Source: Funiculus sociatus GB2-C1 (GTDB lineage: Bacteria > Cyanobacteriota > Cyanobacteriia > Cyanobacteriales > FACHB-T130). Taken from it: a DNA stretch of 64,000 nucleotides. Where the stretch lies: assembly GCF_039962115.1 (NCBI RefSeq), contig NZ_JAMPKJ010000015.1, positions 1 through 64,000 on the forward strand, in the 5' to 3' direction. The notes under the pieces were generated by a model that saw nothing but the letters and a program-made list of their open reading frames with translations, ran no database searches and had not been told where the DNA came from. This document shows, piece by piece, positions 2,460-61,229 of the stretch (the stretch's first letter is position 1; every line of letters begins with the position of its first letter). Position numbers and translations under genes: made by a program.

Positions 2460-3158
2460 CTAGTGAGTCGTGCTGTTGATCGTAACGAGTTGACCATCTT
2501 CCATATGAACAATACGGTCAGCAATATCAAGAATGCGATTATCGTGAGTCACCATGAGAACAGCACACCCCTGTTCCTTAACCAATTGCTGCATGAGTGT
2601 CACTACGTCTCGACCCGATTTACTATCCAAAGCGGCAGTAGGTTCATCAGCTAGAACCAGCTTGGGATGACACACTAAAGCGCGTGCGATCGCTACCCGC
2701 TGTTTTTGTCCTCCTGATAGATTTTCTGGATAGTAATTAATCCGGTTCCCCAACCCAACAGCCTCAAGTGCATCTGCTGATTTTCTACGTGCTTCGAGAA
2801 TAGGAACATTTTCATGTAATTTAATAGACATTTGTACATTTTGTTGAGCTGTTAATGAGCGCAGCAAATTGTGAGATTGGAAAATATAACCAATATGGCG
2901 ACGGATTTTGATGAGTTGTGCATCACTGGCTCCCCGAATCTCTTGGTCAAGAACTTTAAGGCTTCCTTCATCAACAGAGCGCAACCCCCCAATCAAAGTC
3001 AATAAGGTTGTTTTTCCCGAACCAGAGGGCCCCGATAAAATAACTATTTCTCCGGTTTTGACTTCTAAATTGATATTAGACAAAACTCGTTTGCGTAATG
3101 CTCCATTACCAAAGTAATGATTGAGATACTTAATAGAGACAATAGATTTTTGATCCAT
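2460..3158 (-). CDS. devA: DevA-like ABC transporter ATPase
   Basis: A 232-residue ATPase of the MacB/LolD class. Walker A GPSGSGKTT is at 43-51, the signature LSGGQ at 147-151, Walker B LVLADEP at 167-173, and the H-loop is MVTHD near 201. It follows devB and devC in the same direction, with only about 30 bases between the end of devC and its start. That is the standard devBCA order. In heterocystous cyanobacteria DevBCA with a TolC-type outer membrane protein exports heterocyst envelope glycolipids; homologues also occur in species without heterocysts. Here it probably powers export of a lipid or glycolipid. No TolC gene is in the window. Confidence 0.9.
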   Translation of the reverse strand: MDQKSIVSIKYLNHYFGNGALRKRVLSNINLEVKTGEIVILSGPSGSGKTTLLTLIGGLRSVDEGSLKVLDQEIRGASDAQLIKIRRHIGYIFQSHNLLRSLTAQQNVQMSIKLHENVPILEARRKSADALEAVGLGNRINYYPENLSGGQKQRVAIARALVCHPKLVLADEPTAALDSKSGRDVVTLMQQLVKEQGCAVLMVTHDNRILDIADRIVHMEDGQLVTINSTTH

Positions 3159-3188
3159 TAGCTTTCTAGAGTTTGTATGCGTAAATCT

Positions 3189-4340
3189 TTAAAAAATATC
3201 TGCTGGATCTGTACTACGCAGTCTCCGGACAGCAATAAAACCAGAAATAGCACACATCACTATTGTCAATAGCAATACTATTAAAGCTCGGTCATAGGTC
3301 ATTGCAATAGGTAAAAATGTAGCATTTTTAGTTAAATCGTACAGCCCTAGTGAAAGAGCAAATCCAGGGATATAACCTAAAACTGCAAGAATAATGGCTT
3401 CTTGGAAAACAACTAATTCTAAATATAAGTTTTTATATCCCATCGCTTTTAAAGTCGCGTATTCTGAAAGGTGATCGGAAACATCTGTATAAAGAATTTG
3501 ATAAACTATAACTGTACCAACAATGAATCCCATTCCTACACCTAAAGTAAAGATAAAACCAATTGGTGTACTTGTTTTCCAGTAGCTTTTCTCAAAATCT
3601 ACAAAACCTTGATGGGTTAAAACTCTAACATCTTTAGGTAAAGTAGCTTCTATCTGCTTAAGAATTTTTTGAGCATCAGCATTAGGTTTAAGCTGAATAA
3701 GTCCAATATCGATTTCTCCTAATTTACGATCTCTAAATAGATCCAAAAAATTTAAATCATTCACGATTACATTTCCATCAGCTCCAAAAGAAGGACCTAG
3801 TGTAAATAAACCAACAACGTTGACTCTTCTCCCGCCTAATTCGGTAGTAATGAGTTTACCCTGCTCAAATTCTGGAGCAATAGATCCATACTCTTGACGA
3901 GAAGCTCGATCGAACAAAATATTTTCACTAAGTTTAAGCTTATCTATATTCTGGGCGACTTCCGGCAATTTAAAAACAGAATCTCCTGGTCGAAAGCCAT
4001 AGACATATATGGCTCGAAAGGTTCCATCTTCAGGATTTCTCCAATCTCGAAAGCCAACATATATAGGGCTAATAGATTCAACGCCATCAAAGCTCAAAAC
4101 TTGATATAAACGTCGCCAAGAAAAAGTTCTCGTATAACCCAGAGACTTAGAACGAGTGCTGAGCAAAACTAAGTCGCCTTGCAAACTCTGATGTAGTCGT
4201 GTAGCGCTATCATAGAGAGCAGCTTGAAATCCTAATTGCATAAACATGAGAATAACGGCAAAAGCAATGCCTGCTAAAGCAACCAGCAGACGAAGTTTTT
4301 CTCTAGTTAGTTGCAGCCATGCTAAAGGTATATCAAACAT
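3189..4340 (-). CDS. devC: DevC-like ABC transporter permease (FtsX/MacB type)
   Basis: A 383-residue membrane protein with the FtsX/MacB layout: one transmembrane segment near residues 18-38, a large periplasmic domain to about residue 260, then three further transmembrane segments (about 263-285, 313-335 and 348-370). The first residues MFDIPLAWLQLTREKLR and the closing RRLRSTDPADIF are characteristic of DevC proteins. It sits between devB and devA, and the three genes form an apparent minus-strand operon. The periplasmic domain is expected to contact the DevB adaptor and pass substrate to an outer membrane channel, a mechanotransmission scheme known for MacB. The substrate here is inferred from the neighbouring PKS/glycosyltransferase genes only. 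Confidence 0.9.
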   Translation of the reverse strand: MFDIPLAWLQLTREKLRLLVALAGIAFAVILMFMQLGFQAALYDSATRLHQSLQGDLVLLSTRSKSLGYTRTFSWRRLYQVLSFDGVESISPIYVGFRDWRNPEDGTFRAIYVYGFRPGDSVFKLPEVAQNIDKLKLSENILFDRASRQEYGSIAPEFEQGKLITTELGGRRVNVVGLFTLGPSFGADGNVIVNDLNFLDLFRDRKLGEIDIGLIQLKPNADAQKILKQIEATLPKDVRVLTHQGFVDFEKSYWKTSTPIGFIFTLGVGMGFIVGTVIVYQILYTDVSDHLSEYATLKAMGYKNLYLELVVFQEAIILAVLGYIPGFALSLGLYDLTKNATFLPIAMTYDRALIVLLLTIVMCAISGFIAVRRLRSTDPADIF

Positions 4341-4399
4341 TATTGCTCTGGTTTATTAAGAGGAAAATTTATTAATAGTTTTATTGTTTTCAGGGGCAT

Positions 4400-5608
4400 C
4401 TACATATCAATTACTACATTAACCTGTAAATTGGTTAAAGCTGAAACTCTTTGGCTATCCGCTGGGTTTAGACTAATTTTTACCTCAACAATTCTCCGAT
4501 TCACGTCGGCGGTGGGGTCGGTACTTAAGACATCTTGTGGATTAACCTGTAGCCCGATTTGAGTGACTGTTCCGGATAAATTGCCTGGGAAAGCATGGCT
4601 AGTAATAGTAGCTTTTTGCCCAACTTTTACTTTGCTAACATCTAATTCATAAACCTCTGCAATTACATTCATCTGATCTGTTTGTCCCAAAGCAACAATG
4701 CCTTTATTACCAGCTGTCTCTCCGGGTCTGGTATTAATTTTTAAAATTTTTCCCTCTATAGGCGCTCGAATATAGGCTAGCTCTGAATCTGCTTTAGCTT
4801 TCTTCACATTGGCAAGCGCTCTATCAATTTCAGCTTGAGCAGCTTGCACATCTGTAGGACGAATCTCAGCCATTTGATTTAGAGTTGCTTGAGCAGCTTT
4901 TATTTGCTGTTGAAAAGTTGATTGAATCCGGTTTTGATTAACTTGGGCTTCATTTAGCTGCTCTTGTGTCGTTTTCATGAGCAGCTGCTTGCTATCTAAT
5001 TGTGAAGCTGTAACTGCACCGCTTTGGAACAATTTATCATAACGTTGGTACTCGATTCGAGCGTTGTTAAACTGAGCCAAAAGCCGCGCGATCGCTTGGT
5101 CTTGAGCGGCTTGTTGTCCAGCCAATTCGGCTTCTAAGCCTTCAATAGTCGCTTTTTGAGCTTCCAATTCTCCTGTTTTGGCTCCAGCCTTTACTTTAGC
5201 AAGATTGGCTTGAGCGACTTTGACATCTTCTAAAGCCAGTTTTACAGATGTTTGGAGATTTTCCAGGCTATCCAAAATAGCGATCGCTTGTCCTGTTGTA
5301 ACTTTATCGCCTTCCTTGACTAAAAGTTTGGCAACTCGACTTGCTCCCAATCCATTAAGAGCAGTAGGCGCAGACAAGTAAACTACTTCCCCTTCTGGTC
5401 TTAAATGTCCTAAAGCAGAAACGGCTTTATTTGTGGGAGCGATCGCTACAGGATTTGATAAGGAGGCGGACTCACTGCGTTGGAATCTCAATACATATTG
5501 TAAAGCAGCTCCGCTAAGGGCTAAAGCTGTGACAACTGTAGCAATGATAGTCCATCGTCCTGAAGGCTTCAAAAAGGGTTTATTTTTTGAAATAGAATCA
5601 GGCTTCAT
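4400..5608 (-). CDS. devB: DevB-like periplasmic adaptor (HlyD/MFP family)
   Basis: A 402-residue membrane fusion protein. A single N-terminal transmembrane anchor (about residues 19-40) is followed by a lipoyl-like half (LVKEGDKVTTGQAIAILDS). A long alanine- and glutamine-rich coiled-coil hairpin (about 120-260) comes next, then the second lipoyl half (YIRAPIEGKILKINTRPGE) and a beta-barrel/membrane-proximal region. The order and the AIAILDS motif match DevB. It is first in the minus-strand devBCA operon and its start faces the 1.6-kb divergent intergenic region shared with the FAAL gene, so the exporter and the biosynthetic genes may share regulation. No clear NtcA box was found directly upstream of it. 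Confidence 0.9.
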   Translation of the reverse strand: MKPDSISKNKPFLKPSGRWTIIATVVTALALSGAALQYVLRFQRSESASLSNPVAIAPTNKAVSALGHLRPEGEVVYLSAPTALNGLGASRVAKLLVKEGDKVTTGQAIAILDSLENLQTSVKLALEDVKVAQANLAKVKAGAKTGELEAQKATIEGLEAELAGQQAAQDQAIARLLAQFNNARIEYQRYDKLFQSGAVTASQLDSKQLLMKTTQEQLNEAQVNQNRIQSTFQQQIKAAQATLNQMAEIRPTDVQAAQAEIDRALANVKKAKADSELAYIRAPIEGKILKINTRPGETAGNKGIVALGQTDQMNVIAEVYELDVSKVKVGQKATITSHAFPGNLSGTVTQIGLQVNPQDVLSTDPTADVNRRIVEVKISLNPADSQRVSALTNLQVNVVIDM

Positions 5609-7183: not shown

Positions 7184-9022
7184 ATGACTACTTGTTTAGA
7201 TTATTCGACGGACATCGGGCATGAATTTTCGACTTTGGTAGACCTGCTGGACTACAGAGCGAAAAATCAGCCAGACTCTACAGCTTATACCTTTTTGCAG
7301 GACGGAGAAACAGAAGCTGTTACGCTGACATACAAAGAATTGGATCGACAAGCGCGAGCGATCGCATCTCAACTTCAGAGCCTGGATGCCCCAGGTTCTC
7401 GTGCTTTGCTGCTTTATCCACCAGGTTTAGAGTTCATTGCTGCCTTCTTTGGGTGTTTATATGCCTCTGTTGTAGCTGTCCCAGCATATCCACCAAGGCG
7501 CAATCAGAATATGTCCCGATTGCAAGCGATCGCATCTTCTTGCCAAGCAACAATAGCCCTCACAACCATATCCTTGTCTGGCAGCATAGAAGATCGCTTT
7601 ACCGAAGATGCAGAATTCGGCAGATTGCAGTGGCTAGCCACAGATAACATCAACAGCGACCAAGCCCAGACATGGCAGAAACCAGGCTTGGGCCAGAGTA
7701 CCCTAGCTTTTATTCAATACACATCAGGCTCTACGGGTACGCCCAAAGGAGTCATGATCACTCACGGCAACCTGTGGCACAACTCCGCCTTGATCCATCA
7801 GAGTTTCGCTGATACGCCCAACTCTCAGGGCGTAACCTGGCTGCCGTCCTACCACGATATGGGATTAATTGGGGGAGTGCTGCAACCCCTATATGTTGGC
7901 GCGCCGATGGTTTTGATGCCAGCAGTAGCGTTTATGCAAAGACCCTTCCGCTGGCTAGAAGCTATTTCCCGCTATAAAGCGACTACTAGCGGCGGGCCTA
8001 ATTTTGCTTATGACCTTTGTATTCGTAAAATTACCCCAGAACAACGAGCAACTCTTGACCTGAGTAGCTGGGAAGTAGCTTTCACCGGAGCTGAACCCGT
8101 CCGCGCCGAAACCCTAGAGCAGTTTGCCAGCACCTTCGCTGATTGTGGTTTCCGCAAAGAAGCATTTCACCCCTGCTACGGAATGGCGGAAACAACCCTG
8201 ATTGTTTCGGGAGGATTGAAAAAAGCTCCACCGATTATTCGTCAGGTTGATGGCGCAGCCCTTGAGCGAAACCGCGTAGTGGCATCTGTTGGCAAGTCGG
8301 AAAGCACCCGGACAATTGTCGGTTGCGGTCAGACTTGGTTAGACCAGAAAATCCTGATTGTCGATCCTGAGTCTTTAACCCCGTGTCTAGATACCCAAAT
8401 CGGAGAGATTTGGGTATCCGGGCCGAGTGTAGCTGACGGCTATTGGAACCGACCAGAGGAAACAGAAAAAACTTTCCACGCCTATCTAGCAGATACGAAA
8501 GAAGGGCCATTTCTGCGTACAGGGGACTTGGGATTTTTGCAGGATGGCGAATTGTTTATCACCGGGCGGATTAAAGATGTGATTATCATCCGGGGGCAAA
8601 ACCATTATCCCCAGGATATTGAACTGACAGTAGAAAAGAGCCATCCAGCACTGCGGCCTGGTTGTGGGGCAGCGTTTGCGGTGGAATTAAAAGGCGAACG
8701 ACTGGTAATCGTTCAGGAAGTTGAGCGAACTTACCTGCGGAAGCTGGATGTGAATGAAGTAGTAGGGGCTATTCGCCAGGCTGTGGCGGCGGAACACGCT
8801 CTACAGATTTATGCAACAGTGCTGGTGAAAACTGGCAGTATCCCCAAGACTTCGAGTGGTAAAATTCAACGCCATGCTTGTCGGTCTGGGTTTCTCAGTG
8901 GAAGTTTGAATGTCATCGAGGATTGGAGTGAGAATCCTCAGGGCAAATCTAAGTTTCTCAATCTACAGGCTGAGGTCGAATCCGTATTACAGAAATTATC
9001 CACAGGCAAACAGCTAAGCTGA
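7184..9022 (+). CDS. Fatty acyl-AMP ligase (FAAL)
   Basis: A 612-residue adenylate-forming enzyme. The A3 core YTSGSTGTPKGVM is near residues 180-192, SYHDMGLIGG is the characteristic FAAL segment, and RTGDLG and a C-terminal KTSSGKIQR motif follow. FAALs activate free fatty acids as acyl-adenylates and transfer them to an acyl carrier protein rather than to CoA. The ATG at 7184 is preceded by AGGAG at the right distance. The gene opens the plus-strand set that continues with a regulator, a free ACP, a diiron enzyme and a PKS. In the cylindrocyclophane pathway the order FAAL-ACP-diiron halogenase-PKS is known, so this enzyme most likely loads the ACP at 10.4 kb. Chain length cannot be read from the sequence. 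Confidence 0.92.
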   Translation: MTTCLDYSTDIGHEFSTLVDLLDYRAKNQPDSTAYTFLQDGETEAVTLTYKELDRQARAIASQLQSLDAPGSRALLLYPPGLEFIAAFFGCLYASVVAVPAYPPRRNQNMSRLQAIASSCQATIALTTISLSGSIEDRFTEDAEFGRLQWLATDNINSDQAQTWQKPGLGQSTLAFIQYTSGSTGTPKGVMITHGNLWHNSALIHQSFADTPNSQGVTWLPSYHDMGLIGGVLQPLYVGAPMVLMPAVAFMQRPFRWLEAISRYKATTSGGPNFAYDLCIRKITPEQRATLDLSSWEVAFTGAEPVRAETLEQFASTFADCGFRKEAFHPCYGMAETTLIVSGGLKKAPPIIRQVDGAALERNRVVASVGKSESTRTIVGCGQTWLDQKILIVDPESLTPCLDTQIGEIWVSGPSVADGYWNRPEETEKTFHAYLADTKEGPFLRTGDLGFLQDGELFITGRIKDVIIIRGQNHYPQDIELTVEKSHPALRPGCGAAFAVELKGERLVIVQEVERTYLRKLDVNEVVGAIRQAVAAEHALQIYATVLVKTGSIPKTSSGKIQRHACRSGFLSGSLNVIEDWSENPQGKSKFLNLQAEVESVLQKLSTGKQLS

Positions 9023-9172
9023 CACGCCTTAGCCAGTCGTCATCTTAAGAGCTGTCAAGTTGAAACGAAGTTCTGTTCTAGCAACTTTCCAACCTTATAA
9101 CGGCAACTGACAACAGAGTAGCTATTTTCCTTATTTTCTTTGTGGATAAGGGTGTGTATGGGAGCAGATGTG

Positions 9173-9970
9173 ATGAAAAAAATTCTAGTAATTGAACAGC
9201 AAACCCCTACCCGAAACCGTTTTCTCAAAGGTCTTAAAGCTAAAGGTTTCTACACTATCAGTGCTGATAACGGTCGAGTTGGGGTTCATCTGGCACAGGA
9301 GAATTTACCCGATGTGATAATTTCCGGCATTATGATGTCGGAACTCGATGGTTACGATGTTCTGACGGCGGTGCGCTCTAACCCAGTGACAGCGATTATC
9401 CCCTTCATTTTTGTCACTGCCAAGCTGACTCGGAACGATCTTCGCAAAGCTATGGAACTGGGAGCGGATGACTATCTCACCAAACCCTGTAGTTTAGAAG
9501 AATTACACCGAGCGATCGCTGCCCAATTGGAAAAACAGACCGTCCTTCGGCAGTTATACTCCCAACCATCTCCGCCAGTCCCAGCAGCATCATCCACAGA
9601 AACTGCCACTATAACAATAACAACTGCCGCGGACTTAACTTTTCCCTGCAACCCTCCCTTGAGTGAGGTATTTCGTTTCATCGAGGCTAATTATCATCGC
9701 GCGATCGCTCTCGGCGATGTCGCTCAAGCAGTTGGTTACTCCCCAGCTTACTTAACTAACCTGACCCGACGACAGACCGGACAAACCGTGCAACGCTGGA
9801 TAATCCAGCGCCGGATGGCAGCAGCCCGTTCCTTACTTCTAGAGACTGACCAGGCAGTAGAGCATATTGCTCCTAAAGTGGGCTATCACAATGCGGTTCA
9901 TTTCTTCCGCCAGTTTCGCCAATTCCACGGCACAACTCCCCAAGCTTGGAGAAACACCAATCGCAGCTAG
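9173..9970 (+). CDS. Atypical receiver domain fused to an AraC-type DNA-binding domain
   Basis: A 265-residue transcription regulator with a receiver fold (about 1-120), a Thr/Ala/Pro-rich linker (about 125-160) and an AraC double helix-turn-helix (about 165-262, ending FRQFHGTTPQAWR). The receiver is degenerate. The phospho-acceptor position reads IISGIMMSELDG, so Gly52 replaces Asp, and the N-terminal acidic pair is Glu8-Gln9. Thr82 and Lys104 are kept. It therefore probably does not respond to phosphorylation in the usual way. The ATG at 9173 is chosen because GGGAG lies 8 bases upstream; an upstream alternative start at 9140 lacks such a site. Placed between the FAAL and ACP genes, it is likely the local regulator. 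Confidence 0.82.
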   Translation: MKKILVIEQQTPTRNRFLKGLKAKGFYTISADNGRVGVHLAQENLPDVIISGIMMSELDGYDVLTAVRSNPVTAIIPFIFVTAKLTRNDLRKAMELGADDYLTKPCSLEELHRAIAAQLEKQTVLRQLYSQPSPPVPAASSTETATITITTAADLTFPCNPPLSEVFRFIEANYHRAIALGDVAQAVGYSPAYLTNLTRRQTGQTVQRWIIQRRMAAARSLLLETDQAVEHIAPKVGYHNAVHFFRQFRQFHGTTPQAWRNTNRS

Positions 9971-10426
9971 ATCGACACAAACAAGATCGAAAGAATTGTT
10001 AGTCAGATCGACAAATTAATCATTGTAATAGCATCAAACATTTTCTAAGCTTCTTGTAGCAGCCTCTTTAATATTCTTGGGGAAGAGTAAACAAAGAGGA
10101 GATTAGATCAATGAGAACTTTTTAGCTCTCAGGCACCATTTCGCACGATAAGCGAGAAGAAATCGTCGATATCAGGTTGTCTTTAAAAAATATCTTTTTG
10201 TCATAATGGCAACCTGAAGCCAATTTTTGTCAGCTTGGTCATTAGTTCAACCGCAAATAAAGCTAATACGGCTTGAACCAAAGGCACAGGAAATTTTGAG
10301 AATTTATATCAGTTGTGCTGGAGTCTAAACAGCAGCTTTACCTACATTTATGGCACTCATTTCTTAGCCATCAGTACAACTGACAGTCAGCAAAAAACAG
10401 CACTTGAACCCCTGAAGGTTGAAACA
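9971..10426. other. Intergenic region before the ACP gene
   Basis: No convincing gene. The left part has two close copies of AGATCGAC. Around 10167-10217 there are widely spaced inverted arms CAGGTTG and CAACCTG. A long upstream extension of the ACP frame is open to 10313, but the natural start is at 10427. The region may contain a promoter for the ACP and diiron enzyme genes; no clear box was identified. Confidence 0.4.
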
Positions 10427-10741
10427 ATGCAAATCCAGAATCTTCAAGCCACAAATATGTCTACGGCTTCGGGAATGATTATCAAAGAAGCCCCGACGGC
10501 ACCAGAAATTCAAGCGTGGATTGTCTCCTATCTAGCTGAACTACTAGAAATCGAGCCGGATGAAGTTAATGTCACGATTCCCTTTGACCAATACGGTCTA
10601 GACTCTTCAGCAGCAGTTGGTATGACCGGGGACATGGAAGATTGGATGGGAAGAAAACTCGATCCAACCCTACTGTACGATTACCCTACTATTCAGGGTT
10701 TGGCTAGGCATTTGGCTGAGGAATTAAAAATCAAAGTGTAA
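10427..10741 (+). CDS. Free-standing acyl carrier protein
   Basis: A 104-residue acyl carrier protein. The phosphopantetheine site is YGLDSSAAVG with Ser60, followed by helix II/III features (LLYDYPTIQGLARHLAEEL) of PKS-type ACPs. A poorly conserved 20-25 residue N-terminal tail precedes the domain. The ATG at 10427 is preferred over the open upstream extension because the extra N-terminal sequence is not ACP-like. It lies about 100 bases before the diiron enzyme gene and downstream of the FAAL gene, so it should receive the acyl-adenylate and present the acyl chain to the diiron enzyme and then to the PKS ketosynthase. A dispersed G-rich repeat lies between this gene and the next. Confidence 0.9.
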   Translation: MQIQNLQATNMSTASGMIIKEAPTAPEIQAWIVSYLAELLEIEPDEVNVTIPFDQYGLDSSAAVGMTGDMEDWMGRKLDPTLLYDYPTIQGLARHLAEELKIKV

Positions 10742-10843: not shown

Positions 10844-12220
10844 ATGGTAGATACAGCAACACCAGCTTTAAAATTTGAATCTTCAAGTTTATCGGAGGAG
10901 AAGGTAAAAAAGCATATCAAAATCACCGAAATCAACTATCGTCGGAACACTGATTCCGACTACACTGAGAAAATCGAGGAATTAGACAAAAACTTCAACT
11001 ACAGCAGCAACAGCGATTATTATTGGAGTCAGCCGGAGCTTTCAATGCTTTACGGCACCCCACTTTATGAACAAGCCTCCGACTCCCAAAAGAAAGCTCT
11101 AAATCACGTTTATTGGGCAACGCAGTATAACCAAACTGCTGCTACCGAAGCTAATGCCGTACTTTACAATCAGGTGACTGCTGGCGTTTTTTCTCAGATG
11201 AGTGATTACACAACACTCTGCCAAGAACTAGACCTAGAAACAGAACAGGAACGTCATCACATTCATGCTTTTCACACAATTGGTTATAAAACAAAAAAAG
11301 CCCTGCTAGGGAAGACAGCATTTAGTGCGCCTAAGCAAGGGAAGTCAAACCAATTGAACAAAAATCAACCACAACTTTTCAGCTTTAACTTGCAAAGTTC
11401 GCCGATGTCGGCGTTTCAGGACACCGCCTTTCGCTTTATCACCAATAAGGTGATGCTGAAGAACCAAGCACAGTATTATTCCCACTATTTGAGAGAATTG
11501 GAGCAAAAAGGCGAGTTTATTCCAGCACAAACGACTGGCTTGTTGGGGCAAATAGCGCCAAAACCGATGTTACAGTTTTTTACCTTAAACTGTGGCAGTT
11601 CGCCCTTCTTGGCTTGCGTGTTCTACGTCACGCGGTTTTTAGCCAATATGTTGCTCAAGAACTATGAATACCGCTATGTCCAATACTACAGGGACTTAGA
11701 GAGGCAAGGCGAGTTTATCCCAGCCCCGACAGCTGTCTCCTATAACCATCTGATGGATGAATCTTTTCACACTACAACGAGCGAGCTAATCGCTCAAGAT
11801 TTGTATAAGGATTTCTCGAAGCCAACAGCATATGAGAAATTCATCGCTAATGTAACGATCTATCGGGCGCAAAGTGTCGGTTTGAGCGGTCTTTCTGGGG
11901 GACTACCGGGGATATTTAGAACTGATGCTTCTTTCATGCTCTCGTTTTACAAGTTGCTTCAGTCTCCTGTATTTAATATGTCCTCCCAAGAAGCACTCCA
12001 GTGGGTTGAGAAGTGTTTGTGTCAAGAACACGAGGGTTTCTATATAAATCTCAAGTATCACCAACGCCTGCTGATAGATTTGCGTAGGTTTTTTGAGGAG
12101 ATGGATTACCTTTGGCCTGTCAACCGTGAAATGCGCCTGATGGCTACAGGAGGCTCGATTGAGCGGGCTATCAAAACTAATATTAAGGCTTTTGACGAGT
12201 TATCCCGATCTGTCGCCTAA
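10844..12220 (+). CDS. Non-haem diiron enzyme of the AurF/CylC type (putative halogenase or oxygenase)
   Basis: A 458-residue protein. Counting from the ATG at 10844 (GGAAAAGG just upstream), the metal-ligand pattern of AurF-like diiron proteins can be read: Glu102 in ATEANAV, Glu136-x-x-His139 in QERHHIHAF, and His302-x3-Glu306-x2-His309 in HLMDESFH. Between these lies an internal duplication: FRFITNKVMLKNQAQYY with GEFIPAQT (about 196-230) is echoed by TRFLANMLLKNYEYRYV with GEFIPAPT (about 263-297). CylC-type dimetal halogenases occur after a FAAL and an ACP in cyanobacterial pathways and modify unactivated carbons of ACP-bound fatty acids. The gene order FAAL-ACP-this-PKS matches. Hydroxylation or desaturation instead of halogenation remains possible. 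The fold call is good, the reaction is inferred. Confidence 0.6.
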   Translation: MVDTATPALKFESSSLSEEKVKKHIKITEINYRRNTDSDYTEKIEELDKNFNYSSNSDYYWSQPELSMLYGTPLYEQASDSQKKALNHVYWATQYNQTAATEANAVLYNQVTAGVFSQMSDYTTLCQELDLETEQERHHIHAFHTIGYKTKKALLGKTAFSAPKQGKSNQLNKNQPQLFSFNLQSSPMSAFQDTAFRFITNKVMLKNQAQYYSHYLRELEQKGEFIPAQTTGLLGQIAPKPMLQFFTLNCGSSPFLACVFYVTRFLANMLLKNYEYRYVQYYRDLERQGEFIPAPTAVSYNHLMDESFHTTTSELIAQDLYKDFSKPTAYEKFIANVTIYRAQSVGLSGLSGGLPGIFRTDASFMLSFYKLLQSPVFNMSSQEALQWVEKCLCQEHEGFYINLKYHQRLLIDLRRFFEEMDYLWPVNREMRLMATGGSIERAIKTNIKAFDELSRSVA

Positions 12221-12234: not shown

Positions 12235-12352
12235 AAAGTGCGGTGTAGGTTGGGTCTTCGGTACTCAACCATTCGTGTCCTGTCAACTGGATAAATGGTT
12301 GGGTTTCCCGACAGTAATCCCGACCTGAAAATTGACCATGAGAGGCTTTGCA

Positions 12353-15300
12353 GTGGAACCTATAGCAATTATTGGTCTTGGTTGTCGTTTTCCGGGAGCT
12401 AACGATCCGGAAGCCTTCTGGCAACTATTGAGTAACGGTGTGGATGCGATCGCGCAAGTGCCAAAAGAGCGATGGGATATTGACGCATTCTATGACCCAG
12501 AACCAGGTAAGCCGGGAAAAATGAGTACCCGCTGGGGTGGCTTCTTGGAACAAGTGGATCAATTTGAACCCAGCTTCTTTGGGATTGCTCCCCGCGAGGT
12601 GGAGCGAATGGACCCCCAGCAAAGGCTGGCGTTGGAAGTAGCTTGGGAAGCCCTGGAAAATGCCGCAATCGTGCCATCAAAGCTGAGTGGCACTCAAACA
12701 GGGGTTTTCATGGCAATCGGCAACTATGACTATTGCAGATTGCTAACCAAAGATTTAAACCTGGTTAACGCTTACGATGGCACTGGCAATACCCTCTCTA
12801 TTACCGCCAATCGTCTATCGTACATTCTGAATCTGCGCGGGCCAAGTGTGGTAATTGAAACTGCCTGTTCTTCTTCTCTGGTTGCATTGCATTATGCTTG
12901 CCGAAGTTTGGAGAGTGGAGAGTCTAATTTGTGCTTGGTAGGTGGAGTCAGTTTGATGCTGTCTCCGGAGCCATTTATTACCTACTCCCATGCGCGGATG
13001 ATGGCGGCGGACGGTCGCTGTAAGACTTTTGATGCCAGTGCGGATGGTTATGTCCGGGGAGAAGGATGCGGTGTTGTAGTCCTCAAGCGTCTTTCGGATG
13101 CTCTCCGAGATGGAGACAACATTAAAGCAGTTATCAAAGGTTCGGCTGTTAACCAAGATGGCCTAAGCAATGGACTCACAGCACCGAATGGCCCTTCTCA
13201 GCAAGCGGTGATCCGTCAAGCTTTGGAAAATGCTGATGTGCAAGCAACGCAGATTAGCTATGTTGAAGCTCATGGTACTGGCACATCTTTAGGAGATCCC
13301 ATCGAATTTAAATCTCTAAAAGCTGTGCTAATGCAGAATCGCGAGCCAGATCAACCTTGTTGGATTGGCTCGGTTAAAACTAATATTGGTCATTTGGAAG
13401 CTGCTTCTGGGATGGCTAGTGTCATCAAGGTGGTACTTTCGCTACAACATAAAGAAATTCCACCGCACTTGCATCTCAAGCAGCTGAATCCTTATATTTC
13501 TTTGGAAGGGACGACCTTTGCTATTCCTGCTGAGTCTCAAGCTTGGGATGTTGGTACACAGAGACGCTTAGCTGGGATTAGTGCGTTTGGTTTCGGGGGG
13601 ACGAATTGCCATGCAATTTTGGAGGAAGCACCGCAGAACCTTACCCCGCCTCCTGCTACCGCTCCCATCTGGGCAAGTTTAGAGGGGTTGGGGGTGACGT
13701 GCGATCAGCCAACGGATGATATCACAACTCTCGAACGTCCTCTGCATCTTCTTACCCTTTCGGCAAAGACTGAGAACGCTTTGAGGGAATTGGCACAACG
13801 TTATGCAAATTTCTTCGCGACGCATCCTGAAGCATCCCTGGAGGATGTTTGCTTTACTGCAAATACAGCGCGATCGCATTTTGACCATCGTTTTGCTGTA
13901 ACAGCTGAATCTACTGTGCAGTTGCAAGAGCAGTTAACGGCTTTTGCTGCTGGTAAAGAAACTGTCGGACTGGTCAGCAACCCGGTAAAAAGCAATAAGC
14001 GCCCGAAAATAGCATTTTTATTTACTGGTCAAGGTTCGCAGTATGTGGGGATGGGACGCGAACTCTACGCAACGCAACCTATTTTCCGCCAAGCACTTGA
14101 TGGTTGCGATCGCATTCTGCGTCCTTATTTAGAACAACCCTTACTATCAGTTCTATATCCCGAATCTGGGATGAATTCCCCTTTAAATGAAACCGCATAC
14201 ACGCAACCTGCATTATTTGCACTGGAATATGCACTCTTCCAGTTATGGAAATCTTGGGGTCTAACTCCGGATGTTGTCATGGGTCATAGTGTAGGGGAAT
14301 ATGTCGCCGCCTGTGTTTCGGGGGTATTCAGCCTGGAAGATGGTCTAAAATTGATTGCCGAACGCGCCCGTTTGATGCAGGCTTTGCCCGCAGGTGGTGA
14401 GATGGTGGCGGTGTTTGCTTCGGAAAGCAAAGTGCAAGCAGTCATCCAACCATATATCCAAGAGGTTGCGATCGCAGCCATTAATGGCCCAAAGAGTATT
14501 GTTATTTCTGGTCAGGCTGAGGCTGTCGGACAAGCGATCGCATCTTTGCAAGCTGAAGGCATCAAGACGAAAAAGTTGACCGTTTCCCATGCCTTCCACT
14601 CTCCCTTAATGTCGCCCATGCTGGCAGATTTTGAGAGAGTCGCCGCAGAAATTCCATATTCTTCGCCAAAAGTCAAGTTAGTTTCCAATGTTACTGGGGA
14701 ACTAGCAACAGATGCGATCGCCACCCCTGAGTATTGGTGTCGTCATGTGCTTGAGCCAGTCAGATTTGCCAAGAGCATGGAAACCCTTTATCAGAAGGGT
14801 TATAAGGTATTTGTCGAGATCGGTCCGAAGCCGATTTTGTTGGGGATGGGACGCTACTGCTTGCCAGATGCAGAGACATTCGCATCTTTACCAAGTTTGC
14901 GTCCAGAGTGTTCAGATTGGCAGCAAATCCTCCAGAGTTTAGCAGAACTATATGTGCGTGGAGTGGCTGTAGACTGGTCTGGCTTTGACCAAGATTACCC
15001 CCGTCGCCGTCTGCAACTACCAACTTATCCATTCCAGCGACAGCGGTATTGGGTAGAGTTCTCTGAAAATGGTCACTCAAACGAAAAGCCTCTCACCCCA
15101 ATGGTTAAGCTTCTGAACCAGGGGGATACTCAACAGCTAATTCAGCAGTTAGAAACCATAGGGAAACTTTCAGAAGATGAGTTGAAATTATTGCCGAAGC
15201 TGCTGGAATTATTAGTTAAGCAAAATAAACAGCCGCTAACAGCAGCATCTATCAAAGATTGGCTGTATGAGATAGAGTGGCAACTTAAACCGCGTCAGTT

Positions 15301-18300
15301 GACGGAAAACCAAACGATTCAGGCTCCTGAGTCCAGTTCCCCTCCCCTGCGAGGGGAGGGGCTAGGGGAGAGGTCTGGCCGTTGGCTGATTTTTGCAGAC
15401 TTGGGGGGTGTAGGGGAAAATTTAGCGATTTTGCGCGATCGCTGCAACTGTATTCTGGTCTATCCGGGAGACACCTATCAAACCACAGAACCCGGAACTT
15501 ACACCATCAACCCTTCCAATCCAGCCGACTTTGAGCGTTTATTCCAAGAAATAGGGAATCCACCTTTACAGGGAATCCTCCACCTGTGGAGTTTAGAGGC
15601 GGGATTGGCAGATAAGTTAACAATTCCCTCTCTAGAAAATGCACAAACTCTAGGCGTTGCTAGTGTACTAAATTTACTGCAAACTCTGACTGGGAAAGAA
15701 AATCAATTCTCAATTTCCAATTCCCAACCCAAGTTGTGGTTAGTAACGCGGGGTGCAGTACCAGTTGGTGGTTCGCTTCCGGGAGTTGCTCAAGCACCCT
15801 TATGGGGACTGGGCAAAGTCGTGGCTCTGGAACACCGGGAATTGTGGGGTGGAATGCTCGATTTAGCCCCTGAAGCAACTGAAGATGAAGCCGCGAAGCT
15901 GTTAGCAGAAATTGAGAATGCACAAGGGGAAGACCATCTCGCCTTCCGGGATGGACAGCGTTATGTCGCCCGTTTGGTGCAAAAGGAACTACCAGAATCT
16001 CAAGGCGTGGCGTTAAATGCTGATAGCACTTACCTGATTACTGGGGGTTTGGGAGCCTTGGGGCTGAAAGTTGCCCAGTGGATGCTGGAACAGGGCGCTA
16101 AACACTTGGTACTAACTGGACGCAGTGCAGTTTCCAGCCAGGCGCGGGAAGTTATTACCCAGATGGAGCAAGCAGGAGCCGAGATTTTAGTTGCTCAGGC
16201 AGATGTCTGCAATGGGGGGGATATGCTCAGAGTGCTTGAGGAAGTTGAAGCCTCAATGCCACCCCTACGAGGGGTTATTCATGCTGCTGGGGTTTCTCGA
16301 TATGAAGCGATCGCAGATATGGATTTAAACGCCCTTAACTCTGTGTTGCGTCCGAAGTTAGTAGGAACTTGGATTCTGCATAAACTTACCCAAGAAATTA
16401 AGCTTGACTTTTTCGTTAGCTTCTCCTCAATATCTGCGGTGTGGGGTTCTAAAGGACAAGCGCACTATGCGGCGGCGAACCATTTCCTAGATATGTTGGC
16501 ACATTATCGTCTTGGACTTGGGCTACCAGCTTTAAGTGTAAATTGGGGCCCTTGGGCTGGCGGCGGTATGGCGCTAGAAGAATTCCAGACATTCTTGACG
16601 CGGATGGGAGTGGAAGCATTGCAACCACAGCAAGCACTTTCCGCCTTGGGATATCTTCTAGGAGCAGGTTGCGTTCAGACAACAGTGGCGAATGTCGATT
16701 GGACTTTATTCAAAGACCTTTATGAAGCCAGAGGAAAGCGATCGCTATTAGAACTGCTTGAGGTGCGATCTCCCGAAACGCCACAACAGTCGGTGCAACG
16801 ATCGGAGATTCTACAACGATTGGAGACAACTCCTGTAAGCGATCACCACTCTCTGTTAATAACTCACCTCCAAAGTGAAGTTGCAAAAGTGCTGCGCTTA
16901 CCTCAATTGCCAGATCCGCAGCAAGGTCTATTTGATCTAGGAATGGACTCTCTCATGGCAGTTGAGGTTGTCAGTTTGATTCGCTCTCAATTACAAATCG
17001 AATTACCTGTCAGGGAGTTTCTAGAAGCATCAAACATTACCCTCCTGGCAGCCCTATTGCTTAAGCAACTGACACCAGATATTTCTACAGTAGATGTGAC
17101 AGTAAATGTCTTAAATCTCTACGATGAAGCTGTCTTAGATGAGGCAATTAATCCCAACACAGCAAATGAGCAGACGGGAGCAGCTTCGATTCTCCTAACT
17201 GGTGCCAGTGGATTTTTAGGAGCCTTTTTGCTTAAAGAACTCCTCGAACAGACTGACACAAACATCTATTGCTTAGTACGGGCTGCTGATGCTGAAGTAG
17301 GCAAGCTGAAAATCCGAAACAATCTGAAATCTTACGACCTATGGAAGGAGAAGTACAATTCGAGAATTATTTCAATTGCTGGAAATTTATCTCAGCCACG
17401 GTTGGGGCTTTCAACAGAACAATTTAAAAATCTTGCCCGCACAATTGATATTATTTATCACAATGCGGCAACTTTGAATTTTGTTTATCCTTATTCAGCA
17501 TTAAAGCCAACTAATGTTTTGGGTACGCAAGAAATCCTCAGGTTAGCTTGTCAATTTAAAGTCAAACCCCTGCATTATGTTTCAACTGATGCCGTTTTTG
17601 ATTCATCTGGTTATTACGGAAAGGAGGTGAAAGAATCAGAGCCAACTATTCATATTGAGGGAATAGACCTTGGTTATACCCAAACAAAATGGGTAGCGGA
17701 AAAGTTAGTTACCATAGCACGCGATCGCGGACTTCCAGTTTCTATCTACAGACCGCCTTTAATTGCCGGAGACAGCAAAACAGGAATTTGGAATACAGAT
17801 GATTTTACCTGCCGATTTCTTAAAGGCTGTATCCAAATGGGTAGTATGCCAAATATGAACTGTGGCATAACTATTGTGCCTGTGGATTATGTCAGCCAAG
17901 CGGTTGTCTATCTATCAAGGCAGAAAGAATCAATCGGAAAAGCTTTTCACTTAAATAATCCTAACTTTTCGAGTTGGGATGAAGTAGCAAATTGGATCGA
18001 TGATTTGGGCTATCCAGTGCGACAGATTTCCTATGAAGAATGGGAAGCAGAGTTAATAGAAACAGTTGGTTCTAAAGACAATGCTTTAAGCGGTCTTTTA
18101 CCTTTCTTTCTGCGGAGATGGTCTGATGAACAACTGACCTTCGCCGGACTAGGACAACGAAGAGTCAAACTCAACTGTCAAGATACAGTAACCAAGCTTG
18201 CAGATTCTGCGATCGCTTGTCCTCGCGTAGACTCTAAACTGCTGAAAACCTATTTCTCATACTTCAATCGTAGTGGATTTCTAAATGCACCAAAAGTGCG

Positions 18301-18307
18301 GGCATGA
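12353..18307 (+). CDS. Type I polyketide synthase, KS-AT-KR-ACP-thioester reductase
   Basis: About 1,984 residues. The ketosynthase has Cys172 in TACSSS plus EAHGTGT and NIGHLE. The acyltransferase has Ser646 in GHSVGEY and the malonyl-type motif HAFH. The ketoreductase has GGLGALG near 1230 and Tyr1372 in AHYAAAN. An ACP with Ser1533 in GMDSL and a C-terminal NAD(P)H thioester reductase (GASGFLG near 1617, Tyr1775/Lys1779) follow. No dehydratase or enoylreductase is seen between AT and KR. One round would add two carbons, leave a 3-hydroxyl and release an aldehyde or alcohol. GTG at 12353 is chosen for GAGAGG 7 bases upstream; ATG at 12338 is the alternative. An in-frame dispersed repeat lies in the linker before the KR half. 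The likely starter comes from the upstream ACP. Confidence 0.9.
15335..15376. repeat. Palindromic dispersed repeat inserted in frame in the PKS
   Basis: CCCCTCCCC followed by GGGGAGGGG and a GGGGAGAGG tail form a hairpin-like element inside the PKS coding sequence. It encodes [14 protein letters not shown] in the linker between the acyltransferase post-region and the ketoreductase structural half. It keeps the frame, so it is tolerated as an inter-domain loop. Confidence 0.75.
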
Positions 18308-18414: not shown

Positions 18415-20709
18415 GTGGACAAGCAGAAGTTTTACGATCAGATTTTAGCTGAAGGAATCAAACCAGGCGGGAGTATTAGCAAAAAGGTTAAAGACCTGTT
18501 TTCGGGTAAGTCTGGAGTGGATATCCCGGAGTCTAAGAAGAACCCTAAAAAGAACCTTCCCGAAGGATTCCGAGAAAGTGAAATCTCCAGGGTTAGCAAT
18601 GAAGTCACTATCCCAGAATTTACGATTCAAGTTTACACTCCTGGCAGCGACCTTGCCGCAGCGACCGCAAAAAATCAAGTCATTTATGCTCGCGATGGCA
18701 ACGATACCCTGATTGGGCTTGACCCTTTTAATAATAAAGCCGGTCAAGTTCAAATTGATATTTTAATCGGCGACTTGCCAATAATACAGCCGCCCAATCC
18801 GCGTGATTGGACAGACAGATTTGTTCTTGGTGATTCAAAACAGCCTTACTACGTAGATGGCGGTTTCAAGGACTTTGCTCTAATTTTAGACTTCAACCCC
18901 AGCCAGGATATCATTCAACTACACGGTTCTCGACAAGACTACCTACTGGCAGAATCGGGTCTGGGAACAGAGATATACTATCAGCCGAAAAAAGGTACAT
19001 CTGAATTTATTGGCTTTTTGCCTTTTGTTTACGATCTGAGTTTAAAGGGTGGCTATTTCCGGTATGAGGGAAAAGGGAACACCCCACCTAATAAGCCAGT
19101 AGTAAAGCAGGCTGAGCAATTGGGAACCTCCCGTTTTGACATCACTGCTAGTGTAGTTGCGGATGCCTTTGGTAATGTGTACACCGCAGGAGGAACCAGT
19201 GGTTCTTTGGGAGGAGCCAATGCTGGGGAGCGCGATGCCTTATTGGTCAAGTATGACAGCGATGGCAACCAGACGTTTATTAAACAGTTTGGTTCTTCCC
19301 GTGCTGACACTGTTTATGGTATGGCTACTGATAGCCAAGGCAACGTTTACTTAACAGGAATTACCGCAGGCAATTTGGCGGAACCCAAGCAAGGAACGTC
19401 TACTGATGCCTGGGTAGCCAAGTATGACCGCAGTGGCAAACGGTTATGGATTGACCAGTTCGGAACTGACATTATTAATCAGTCCTTTGATGTCGATGTT
19501 GACGACGATGGCAATGTCTATGTAGCGGGAATAACTGTTAAGTCAGGCGAACCAGGAGGAACGCTTCCGGCTACGGACGATTACTGGGTAACAAAGTATG
19601 ACACCAATGGCAAGCGCCAGTGGTTTAAGGAGTTTGATAGTACTAGCGCTAATCCCAGCGATCTTGATTTCGACGAAGCTTACGGCGTTGCAGTCACTGG
19701 CGATGGCAATGTCTACGCTTCAGGATGGACTCTCGGCAACTTGGCGGGAAAGAATGCTGGGCTTTATGATGCCTGGGTAGGCAAATATGACACCAATGGG
19801 AACCAAGAGTGGGTTAAACAGTTTGGGACTTCGACTTATGAATTCTCCTGGGATGTGGATACCGATACTCAGGGCAATGCCTACGCTGTAGGATGGACTC
19901 TAGGAGACTTGGGGGGAAAGAATGCTGGGCTTTATGATGCTTGGTTAGTCAAGTATGACAGCGATGGAAACCAGAAGTGGCTTAAGCAGTTTGGTACGAG
20001 TGGTGATGATGAAGCCTTTGGCGTGGAGACTGACTTAGCTGGCAATATCTATGTTGTAGGATATACCGATAAGAGCTTGAAAGGAACCAATGCCGGGTCT
20101 TTTGATGCCTGGGTGGTCAAGTACGACACCAATGGAAACCGGAAGTGGACTCAACAGTTTGGCACTCCTAATCTCGATCAGGCTCTCGGTGTTAGCATTG
20201 ATGACATTACTGGTAGCCTCTACGTTACAGGCGCTACTGAGAGTTCTTTTGGGGATAGCCCTGCTGGAAGTGTCGATAGCTGGGTAGCCAAATTGGATGC
20301 AAACTCCGGAAGCCTGCAAAGCTTTACAGGTACTGCTAACAATAAACCAAGTGGAAAGAATGTTACTGGCACTAATGGCGACGATCGGATTATTAGTGCC
20401 AAAGGTCGGGATATTATCACTGGTCTTGATGGCAGCGATATTTTTGTCTACAACAGCTACAAAGACGGGGGCGACACTATAACTGATTTTTCAGCCAATG
20501 AGGATTTCATCGACCTTAGTCCCATCTTCGCCAGCCCAAATTACAGAAGCACAGAGCCATTTGATGACTACGTGCAGCTGGTTCAACTGGGTTCTAGTAC
20601 GGCGGTTCAAATCAACCCAGTCGGCGATGCTCGCGATACTTTCCGGACGCTAGTCACCCTGGAGAACTTTACTGCCAGTAACTTAAGCGCCGACAATTTT
20701 ATTGTCTGA
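18415..20709 (+). CDS. SBBP-repeat beta-propeller protein with RTX-type C-terminus
   Basis: A 764-residue probably secreted protein starting at GTG with GGAGGAG upstream. Residues 60-220 form a domain shared with the protein at 24.6-26.6 kb. From about 230 to 630 there are some eight repeats of about 50 residues with the SBBP pattern (GNVYxxGxT, D-A-W-V-x-K-Y-D, G-x-x-x-W-x-x-Q-F-G), predicted to fold as a beta-propeller. The C-terminus (about 645-764) has GTNGDDRI and GLDGSDIF, calcium-binding RTX-like nonapeptides, and ends with the hydrophobic tail usual for type I secretion substrates. No classical signal peptide is present, in keeping with type I export. A 38-bp perfect palindrome follows the stop. 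Function is unknown; surface adhesion or binding is plausible. Confidence 0.82.
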   Translation: MDKQKFYDQILAEGIKPGGSISKKVKDLFSGKSGVDIPESKKNPKKNLPEGFRESEISRVSNEVTIPEFTIQVYTPGSDLAAATAKNQVIYARDGNDTLIGLDPFNNKAGQVQIDILIGDLPIIQPPNPRDWTDRFVLGDSKQPYYVDGGFKDFALILDFNPSQDIIQLHGSRQDYLLAESGLGTEIYYQPKKGTSEFIGFLPFVYDLSLKGGYFRYEGKGNTPPNKPVVKQAEQLGTSRFDITASVVADAFGNVYTAGGTSGSLGGANAGERDALLVKYDSDGNQTFIKQFGSSRADTVYGMATDSQGNVYLTGITAGNLAEPKQGTSTDAWVAKYDRSGKRLWIDQFGTDIINQSFDVDVDDDGNVYVAGITVKSGEPGGTLPATDDYWVTKYDTNGKRQWFKEFDSTSANPSDLDFDEAYGVAVTGDGNVYASGWTLGNLAGKNAGLYDAWVGKYDTNGNQEWVKQFGTSTYEFSWDVDTDTQGNAYAVGWTLGDLGGKNAGLYDAWLVKYDSDGNQKWLKQFGTSGDDEAFGVETDLAGNIYVVGYTDKSLKGTNAGSFDAWVVKYDTNGNRKWTQQFGTPNLDQALGVSIDDITGSLYVTGATESSFGDSPAGSVDSWVAKLDANSGSLQSFTGTANNKPSGKNVTGTNGDDRIISAKGRDIITGLDGSDIFVYNSYKDGGDTITDFSANEDFIDLSPIFASPNYRSTEPFDDYVQLVQLGSSTAVQINPVGDARDTFRTLVTLENFTASNLSADNFIV

Positions 20710-20752: not shown

Positions 20753-20898
20753 TCCTCGGAGAGGTTTACTTCCTGAATGTGTGACTAAAAACAATTATTG
20801 TACAAACGGATTTGATATAAGCTGTCTTCTCTGAATACAAAATTAATTCTCTTTTGTAAATTTCTGCTTGTTTTGAATAAATATGAGGATTGAATTTA

Positions 20899-22152
20899 AT
20901 GGACTCCTCTAAAATGTACACCCTAGCTTTTCTTGTAACCGGCTTTCCTCCTGACGTGAGTGGTGTTTCTCACTTCAACTGGGAACGCGCTTTATGGTTT
21001 GCCAAGCAGGAGATGTATCGTGTGGTTGTATTTGCACCCGATTGGCAAAATGCGCTAGATACCCCATTAGCACCATTAAATTTAAAAGGAAAGTTGATTA
21101 TTGAACGTTATCCGTCAAAGCCTTGGCTACCTTATAAATTGACTCATGTTCCCAAGTTTAGCGCAGCACAGGAAATCAGAAAAAAGCTAGCTTACTACCA
21201 ACCTGATTTGATTATAATAACGGATGTAGAACGCTTTTTCTTATTAAGCACATGGCAGTTACCAGGTAGACGCTATGCCAGAAAGTATCATATTCCGTAC
21301 ATAGCCGAATATCATACCGACCTGTACAATTTTTCAGCAGCTTATCCGGGTTGGCAATGGTTGCGAAATGCTGCGCGTAGTTCTCAGTTAGCAAGTTATT
21401 TATATCGTCAAATCGATATGACAGTATGCGCTAGTACATCGGCAAGCCAAAGCTGTCAAGAATTGGGAATTCCCAAGGTTAATACAATTCCCTTTTTAGG
21501 AATTGATGTTTCCACATATAGCCCCAGTCGTCGGAACCGGAAATGGTTAGAACCGTGGTTAAGCGCTAAAGAGAAAGACAACAAAGTATTACTATTTCTG
21601 GGCCGTCTTGGCTTCGAGAAACGAGCCGATTTACTAATCGAAGCTTTTGGGAAATTAAAACGCCAATACCCTAATTATTCTCTAATAATTGCTGGTGATG
21701 GGCCTGAGAATGTCGTTAACCAATTAAAACGTCTTGCCCAACAAGTTCCCGATATCCACTTTACAGGGTTTCTGCTGGGAGAAACAAAGGCTAATGTATT
21801 AGCTTCATGTGATGTATTTTGTAGCCCTTCACCTTACGAAACTTTTGGGCGAACAATCGTGGAAGCAATGGCTTCAGGTATTCCCGTTGTCACTGTTAAT
21901 AGCGGCGCGGTGTCAGAGTATATATTCGATGGTGTCAATGGGTATCTTGTCCCAGCTAATGATGTTGATGGATTAGCGAATGGCATTCACCGAGTATTAT
22001 CCATCAATAACACAGAAGTTATTCAACACGCCTCGCGAGATGCGAAGCAGTTTTCTCTCGACCAAGGATGTCAAAATCTTAGCAATTACTATCAGAAACT
22101 ATTAGGGGTGAGTAAGGATTATAAAAATTTGAAAAGTCTAAGTAGGATGTGA
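20899..22152 (+). CDS. GT4-family glycosyltransferase
   Basis: A 417-residue GT-B glycosyltransferase. The N-terminal acceptor domain begins with TLAFLVTGFPPDVSGVS, where a Pro-Gly-type loop meets the donor phosphate. The C-terminal GT4 (glycos_transf_1) domain has FLGRLGFEKRADLLIEAF, IAGDGPE and the retaining EX7E-type motif SPYETFGRTIVEAMASG. It is related to the GT4 enzymes that add mannosyl, glucosyl or sulfoquinovosyl groups to lipids. The ATG at 20899 has GAGG about 11 bases upstream; a TTG at 20890 is also open. It is followed after about 50 bases by a methyltransferase. Acceptor and sugar cannot be decided; it could act on a lipid or surface polysaccharide. Confidence 0.85.
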   Translation: MDSSKMYTLAFLVTGFPPDVSGVSHFNWERALWFAKQEMYRVVVFAPDWQNALDTPLAPLNLKGKLIIERYPSKPWLPYKLTHVPKFSAAQEIRKKLAYYQPDLIIITDVERFFLLSTWQLPGRRYARKYHIPYIAEYHTDLYNFSAAYPGWQWLRNAARSSQLASYLYRQIDMTVCASTSASQSCQELGIPKVNTIPFLGIDVSTYSPSRRNRKWLEPWLSAKEKDNKVLLFLGRLGFEKRADLLIEAFGKLKRQYPNYSLIIAGDGPENVVNQLKRLAQQVPDIHFTGFLLGETKANVLASCDVFCSPSPYETFGRTIVEAMASGIPVVTVNSGAVSEYIFDGVNGYLVPANDVDGLANGIHRVLSINNTEVIQHASRDAKQFSLDQGCQNLSNYYQKLLGVSKDYKNLKSLSRM

Positions 22153-22205
22153 GGGAACTTAGATACTTTTTCAACATTTAAGAACATTTGTTAGGTGAAA
22201 CTGAC

Positions 22206-23186
22206 ATGATTGAGTTTAACTCAAATCCTAACTATCTTGAAAATTCTGCCTTGTCCGTATTTTATAAGCCAAGAAAAAACAAACAGCGCCTTGACTGTTT
22301 GATCTGCAATCATCGCATTGATCCGAATGACGAATCTGCGTTCGTAACGTTTTCTTGTAACGTCAAAGCTTTTGGAGATGAGATATTCAAGGTTTGGCGA
22401 TGCCCAGGTTGCATGACGATTCATTGTTTAGATGTCGTTCATCTCGCACACTACTATGCAAAATACCCTTTTGCCCAAACCGTACTTAAATTACCATTGC
22501 GCTTATCCTATGGGAATCTATGCCGACAACTGACAAAGCAGGGGTTTTCTAAAGCTCATTCGCTGCTCGATTATGGCTGCGCCAACGGTATGTTTGTACA
22601 GTATCTGCGACAAAACGGCTTTGCAAATTGCCACGGATATGACCCTTATGCCCCAAAGGAAGGATTTGGCGATCGCGCAACTCTCCAGCGAGGCCCTTTC
22701 GATTACATTTTGCTCCAAGATGTAATCGAACACGTTGAAGATCCCAAAGCACTATTGTGCGAGTTGGATGCCCTTCTCGCCCCTGGCGGTCATATTCTGA
22801 TTGGCACGCCAAACGCAGCAAATATCGACCTAACCCAGCCCAATGTTTCCGATTACTATAATCCGGTTCATGTTCCCTATCACCTTCATCTTTATACTCG
22901 CAAATCTATTGAATCCTTGGGGTGTCACCAAGGCTGGGAGCCGGTAGATTTCTTTGACCAACCTTATCACGATACACGCTGGTTCGGCACAAACTCTCGT
23001 GCTTGGAATGAGTATCAACGCCTCTTTGACGGCACGATCAACGTTATTTTTGAACCAATAAAACTATGGAAAGCGCTGACTTCTTACAAATTCATGTTCT
23101 ACGCGATTTTTGGCTATTGGCTTAGTTTCAAAACTGAGATGGCGATCGCGTTCCGCAAAACTGGAGGTGATACTAATGCCACTTGA
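22206..23186 (+). CDS. SAM-dependent methyltransferase with N-terminal Cys-pair domain
   Basis: A 326-residue class I methyltransferase (Methyltransf_23 type). Two cysteine pairs, C31-x-x-C34 and C66-x-x-C69, could bind zinc before the Rossmann core, whose motif I is LDYGCANGMF at 121-130; ILLQDVIEHVEDP and LAPGGHILIGTPN follow. A similar zinc-binding N-terminus occurs in sugar or polysaccharide C-methyltransferases, so a sugar or glycan substrate is possible given the GT4 gene just upstream. AGGTGA lies 7 bases before the chosen ATG; an upstream TTG at 22188 is open but lacks a ribosome site. Its last 11 bases overlap the start of the fabF relic. Confidence 0.8.
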   Translation: MIEFNSNPNYLENSALSVFYKPRKNKQRLDCLICNHRIDPNDESAFVTFSCNVKAFGDEIFKVWRCPGCMTIHCLDVVHLAHYYAKYPFAQTVLKLPLRLSYGNLCRQLTKQGFSKAHSLLDYGCANGMFVQYLRQNGFANCHGYDPYAPKEGFGDRATLQRGPFDYILLQDVIEHVEDPKALLCELDALLAPGGHILIGTPNAANIDLTQPNVSDYYNPVHVPYHLHLYTRKSIESLGCHQGWEPVDFFDQPYHDTRWFGTNSRAWNEYQRLFDGTINVIFEPIKLWKALTSYKFMFYAIFGYWLSFKTEMAIAFRKTGGDTNAT

Positions 23187-61210: not shown

Positions 61211-61229
61211 AATTGCTAATGGTTATAGC

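Follow-up and report, generated by a model that had tools for sequence, protein, structure and literature searches.

The gene at positions 10844 to 12220 of the window, by which we mean the whole stretch of 64,000 nucleotides of Funiculus sociatus DNA analysed here, encodes, to judge from its sequence, a relative of the dimetal (CylC/NocO-type) halogenases and is a new member of this known family. The product is most likely an iron enzyme that chlorinates a fatty acid during the assembly of a chlorinated glycolipid. Taken as a whole, our results are best explained by a diiron CylC/NocO halogenase acting in a glycolipid pathway built on a fatty acyl-AMP ligase (FAAL), an acyl carrier protein (ACP) and a polyketide synthase (PKS), with a helix duplication that arose in the FAAL/ACP lineage. 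We give this reading a probability of about 0.8.

Relatives share the MVDT/MLDT-like N-terminus of the 458-residue protein. A scan of bacterial genome contigs yielded 20 loci with relatives at 46-76% identity, nearly all cyanobacterial; in two broader searches the family turned up in 33 of 386 genomes from the phylum and in 113 of 391 from the order. One very distant member (L061:8667-9962, reverse strand, genome G382) lies in a PKS cluster and scores 34 bits against the first family profile. General models gave little: PF11583 (AurF) matches the protein around E102 with 20.2 bits, below its cut-off of 29.6, and the organism's own genome contains no PF11583 match above threshold. NCBIfam has no model matching the protein, and sequence and profile searches of a PDB copy with the protein or its alignments returned no match.

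The assignment to the family comes from the active site. As reference we used the nine residues published as required for chlorination by NocO in a study of 2025 on NocO and CylC (PMC12101540), seven of which lie within the motifs QExxH and HxxDExxH; alanine variants of each abolished chlorination (PMC12101540). All nine are found in the 458-residue protein: E102, Q135, E136, H139, E275, H302, D305, E306 and H309. Conservation was read from an alignment of 85 sequences, in which plasmid-derived rows had been dropped or swapped for identical proteins from other loci. The gene and its active-site residues are located as follows.

10844..12220, forward strand: halogenase homologue gene, an intact open reading frame from the ATG at 10844 to the stop at 12220, encoding 458 residues (P0001)
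11147..11149, forward strand: E102, first-helix ligand, invariant in the 85 sequences
11246..11260, forward strand: Q135-E136-x2-H139 (QExxH), a halogenase motif, invariant in the 85 sequences
11666..11668, forward strand: E275, equivalent of AurF E196 and NocO E252, 27 residues before H302
11747..11770, forward strand: H302-D305-E306-H309 (HxxDExxH), a halogenase motif, invariant in the 85 sequences

Eight of the nine are invariant in the alignment, and the exception is the third-helix Glu, which is Gln in a Rieske-type group; Gln at this position has also been reported for a small subset (PMC12101540). The 27 residues between E275 and H302 are the same distance as in NocO (E252 to H279) and in AurF. 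The original prediction had proposed an AurF/CylC-type diiron protein with the ligands Glu102, E136-x2-H139 and H302-x3-E306-x2-H309. These motifs proved exact and invariant, and the assignment can be sharpened to the CylC/NocO halogenases, since all nine published residues are present and Gln replaces AurF Asp135. Its list lacked Q135 and D305, both invariant, and the third-helix Glu E275.

The genes around the halogenase homologue point to a glycolipid pathway.

121-891, reverse strand: thioesterase, possible outer cluster member (Pfam)
1037-2338, reverse strand: GT28/EryCIII-like glycosyltransferase, possible outer cluster member (Pfam)
2460..5608, reverse strand: DevA/DevC/DevB-type exporter genes (2460-3158, 3189-4340, 4400-5608), from an ABC ATPase match and DevB/DevC similarity
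7184..9022, forward strand: FAAL, a conserved neighbour (Pfam/NCBIfam FAAL-type models)
9140..9970, forward strand: response regulator with AraC-type DNA-binding domain, kept in relatives (Pfam)
10313..10741, forward strand: free ACP (Pfam PP-binding, 1.3e-15)
12332..18307, forward strand: type I PKS, KS-AT-KR-ACP-thioester reductase (Pfam/NCBIfam; TIGR01746 above cut-off)
18415..20709, forward strand: CylK/NglO-type alkyl-halide-using enzyme with C-terminal RTX repeats (phmmer E 7e-149 to solved CylK)
20890..22152, forward strand: GT4-like glycosyltransferase, in the same place in relatives (Pfam)
22188..23186, forward strand: methyltransferase, possible cluster member (Pfam)
23600..24100, forward strand: FabA-like dehydratase, possible cluster member (Pfam)
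24558..26594, reverse strand: second CylK/NglO-type protein (phmmer E 1e-146 to solved CylK)

About 16 relatives have the core genes in the same order. FAAL and ACP genes beside the halogenase gene are a feature of the type I PKS class of CylC/NocO halogenases, and both are present here. The DevB and DevC proteins resemble annotated DevB/DevC proteins encoded next to halogenase genes on Gloeothece and Stanieria plasmids. The PKS has a single module, and its thioester-reductase ending suggests release as an aldehyde or alcohol rather than an acid; many relatives likewise pair such a PKS with a CylC homologue, and we found no product for this combination. The same cluster also appears in a Chloroflexaceae MAG (L013/L100) with PKS and FAAL split over several frames, where cyanobacterial contamination or sequencing errors are possible. 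Farther along the window, at 47728-54064 and 59720-62425, two sets of genes for a PnrA-like (Bmp) substrate-binding protein and an ABC transporter ATPase lie on opposite strands and are unrelated to the halogenase.

With CylC and NocO the protein and its cluster share the nine residues, both motifs and the FAAL-ACP-type I PKS neighbourhood (PMC12101540, PMC8406957), while the partner PKS differs by ending in a thioester reductase. The nostochloroside (ngl) pathway of Nostoc punctiforme likewise comprises a FAAL, a CylC homologue, PKS, a glycosyltransferase and a CylK homologue (PMC10849952), the last of which, NglO, polymerises chlorinated glycolipids through ether formation (PMC10849952). However, the ngl PKS set is described as having DH, ER and inactive KS domains (PMC10849952), whereas Pfam found no DH or ER domain in the KS-AT-KR-ACP-thioester reductase protein beside the halogenase. 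The present cluster further differs in having one PKS module beside the halogenase, two CylK-type genes and adjoining DevABC-type exporter genes. These CylK-type genes sit on opposite strands of one cluster, and their products match CylK (structures 7ron, 7fh8) at E about 1e-147 and keep the equivalents of the alkyl-halide residues Arg105 and Tyr473, but both have Glu at Asp440 (positions read by eye from alignments). NglO has a Glu base and a C-terminal RTX domain (PMC10849952); the 18415-20709 protein has both, the RTX region being a further difference from CylK, and the 24558-26594 protein has the Glu.

Because the chemistry of the halogenase and of the pathway is read from homology, we propose the following sequence of events as a working scheme. 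FAAL would activate a fatty acid and load it onto the free ACP. The halogenase would then use two irons, O2 and chloride to install chlorine at an unactivated carbon of the chain carried by the ACP. The PKS module is expected to add one malonyl unit, to reduce the β-ketone and to release the chain reductively as an aldehyde or alcohol, after which the glycosyltransferases could attach sugar and the DevABC-type exporter could carry the glycolipid out. The CylK/NglO-like enzymes may use the C-Cl bond as an electrophile, probably for ether formation as in the nostochlorosides.

The second peculiarity of the protein is the distance between its second and third motifs. E136 and H302 are 166 residues apart; in AurF the equivalent residues, E136 and H223, are separated by 87 residues, and most of the AurF-type proteins found have about 86-88. 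That the long spacing is special to this protein was considered and rejected: it characterises an entire branch of the family, and the published NocO numbering implies it too. When the family was grouped by the distance from the QExxH Glu to the first His of HxxDExxH, three groups were obtained: long forms (150-190), short forms with Glu at the E275 position (109-114) and short forms with Gln there (110-111). The long forms also have Glu at this position, and the Gln forms are the Rieske-type group. For most of the short forms with Glu, the cluster includes PfaD and/or KASIII genes. In Fischerella-type genomes (L017-L020 and L132) insert-less homologues adjoin genes for PfaD and/or KASIII as well as a CylK-like gene, and at two of these loci (L019 and L020) there is a flavin (tryptophan-type) halogenase in addition, so that one pathway may draw on two types of halogenase. 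A second CylC homologue in the genome studied here (L058, G000:C24:38804-39955) has no insert and has Gln at the third-helix position; it sits among genes for a fatty acid hydroxylase and three Rieske proteins, which matches the published description of the Rieske class.

The additional residues of the long form contain a copy of a neighbouring part of the protein. The two copies lie at the following positions.

11396..11536, forward strand: copy 1 of the duplicated unit, residues 185-231, no metal ligand; defined by self- and profile alignment, three short helices in the model
11597..11734, forward strand: copy 2, residues 252-297, the third bundle helix with E275 and the following turn; defined by alignments, helix 254-287 in the model

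Between them 22 of 46 aligned positions are identical (48%), with one single-residue gap. When the protein was aligned locally with itself, the score was 92 (z = 17.7 relative to 1000 shuffled sequences), the top value among 64 distinct long relatives, 46 of which have z above 4. Profiles of the two segments, built from 63 relatives, match each other with a probability of 98.8% and E = 6e-17, while six control segments from the same proteins reach at most 0.4%. On these alignments the internal repeat is a genuine duplication of a 46-residue unit, far beyond chance, and the unit consists of the E275-bearing helix and the turn that follows (SSPF...R...LKNxE...YYRxLExxGEFIPAPT). From the sequence comparison, copy 2 is the original, since it is the Glu of this copy that lines up with the corresponding Glu in AurF-type proteins. 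The position in copy 1 that matches E275 is A209, and it is A, K, E or S across the family. Copy 1 has conserved positions of its own in the long forms, namely Y212, S213 (88%), Y215, L216 (88%) and G232 (98%).

An AlphaFold2 model built from the 85 sequences (pLDDT 90.2, pTM 0.87), which replaced an earlier one from 18 relatives (pLDDT 56), places the ligands on long helices at 80-116, 120-155, 254-287 and 294-323. Copy 1 is modelled as three shorter helices (187-204, 206-211 and 214-221) between the second and third of these. Against the PDB, Foldseek ranks AurF highest in probability (0.94-0.95), but the match is weak, with E about 0.3 and TM 0.55-0.58 by AurF length; other weak matches include ACP desaturases and R2-like oxidases, and a viral structure library gave weak matches only, the best being a phage rubrerythrin. 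Local profile alignment with AurF-type proteins gave E about 0.001 at low probability. The model thus lends weak support to an AurF-like assignment, at the level of the fold. With AurF, the p-aminobenzoate N-oxygenase of PF11583, the protein shares ligand order and local spacing, but it differs in Q135, found here and throughout the family in place of Asp135, in the 79 extra residues between the second motif and H302, and in remaining below the Pfam cut-off.

The original prediction had also described a longer gap between the second and third motifs than in AurF, filled by an internal duplication that might carry a second set of helices. Both the gap and the duplication were confirmed by the values given above, and the predicted structure agrees with the extra helices. 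A second set of metal ligands does not follow, since copy 1 has lost the Glu at the position matching E275, and we discarded copy 1 as a second metal site on this ground. The comparison with CylC that it had called for was made through the published NocO residue numbers, in which E129 and H279 are 150 residues apart (PMC12101540), implying a comparable insert.

This spacing of NocO leads to the history of copy 1. A group of long forms with NocO-like spacing (L121, L122, L126, L128 and L062) has a decayed copy 1, with z near 0-3, unlike the nearly intact copy in our protein; in L062 the spacing is exactly 150, and a neighbour containing adenylation- and KR-like regions hints at a chlorosphaerolactylate-like cluster. 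Despite the decay, the insert in this group can still be aligned with copy 1 (probability 96.7%, E = 4.5e-10). Copy 1 is absent from the PfaD/KASIII-cluster and Rieske-cluster homologues. In a tree built without the insert columns, a branch with an SH-aLRT support of 92 separates the long forms from the rest. The simplest reading is that copy 1 was gained once. It is unlikely, though well worth weighing, that copy 1 was instead lost in the short forms after a duplication that predates the split from the Rieske-type homologues: a support of 92 is not decisive, and a smaller tree mixes long and short forms with weak support, but the two insert-less groups are nearly equal in spacing (109-114) and the outgroup has no insert.

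The presence of copy 1 goes along with the supply of substrate. Of the 54 long forms flanked by 3.5 kb or more on each side, 47 have FAAL and a free ACP gene nearby and 51 have an ACP gene; the exceptions with neither are L054, in a Stanieria P450/sulfotransferase cluster, L130 and L131. FAAL is near none of the 20 insert-less forms, and an ACP gene is near two or three of them. As the long forms are one branch, this association amounts to about a single evolutionary event and is no proof of function. The duplication of the unit, the third bundle helix with its turn, most simply happened once, in the lineage with FAAL/ACP-loaded substrates; the downstream copy retained E275, and the upstream copy lost its Glu and, we hypothesize, became an extra small helical element. 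This element may act in the handling of ACP or of the acyl chain, where it would most likely shape substrate entry or the contact with ACP. In its widest form the proposal is tentative: a ligand-bearing helix was duplicated, and the spare copy, on losing its metal ligand, became a new subdomain adapting an AurF-like fold to FAAL-loaded acyl-ACP, with a single origin at the root of the fatty-acid-chlorinating CylC enzymes.

Other explanations differ in how deeply they touch this picture. It is very hard to sustain that the segments are alike through convergence, as two amphipathic helices with similar turns. Similarity is indeed weak (z 4.0 or below) in 18 of the 64 long forms, but the identity over 46 residues, the profile match with its negative controls and the alignment of the decayed insert with copy 1 all speak for a common origin. 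The enzyme itself could instead be a diiron oxidase working on acyl-ACP, for instance a hydroxylase or desaturase, as the fold family contains such enzymes (the ACP desaturases and R2-like oxidases among the weak matches) and no chlorinated product of this cluster is known. However, Q135 and the HxxDExxH residues are exactly the halogenase set, and the cluster also encodes two enzymes of the CylK type, whose known relatives have alkyl chlorides as substrates; we regard an oxidase as improbable.

A far closer contender, to which we would give only slightly less than even odds, concerns the role of copy 1. The duplication would be real, but copy 1 would merely stabilise the fold or the complex with FAAL and ACP, or be tolerated with no role, and it would shape neither the pocket nor the ACP contact. 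Copy 1 has decayed past recognition in the group with NocO-like spacing and yet NocO is active (PMC12101540), and CylC is reported to need partner proteins for solubility (PMC12101540). On the other hand, copy 1 is found in nearly all FAAL-linked forms and keeps its own conserved positions (S213, L216 and G232) across the long forms.

In summary, our results indicate that a copied core helix is common to nearly all the fatty-acid-loading relatives and, as far as we found, has not been described before; in the open-access journal papers found, the text examined made no mention of a duplication in CylC-type enzymes. The published account, in the parts available to us, leaves carrier-protein recognition and the choice of one carbon unexplained (PMC12101540). 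A helix duplication that coincides with FAAL/ACP-loaded substrates provides a concrete, testable element, for which the insert-less relatives are natural controls, and the window holds a conserved, apparently uncharacterised chlorinated-glycolipid-like cluster shared by about 16 cyanobacterial relatives.
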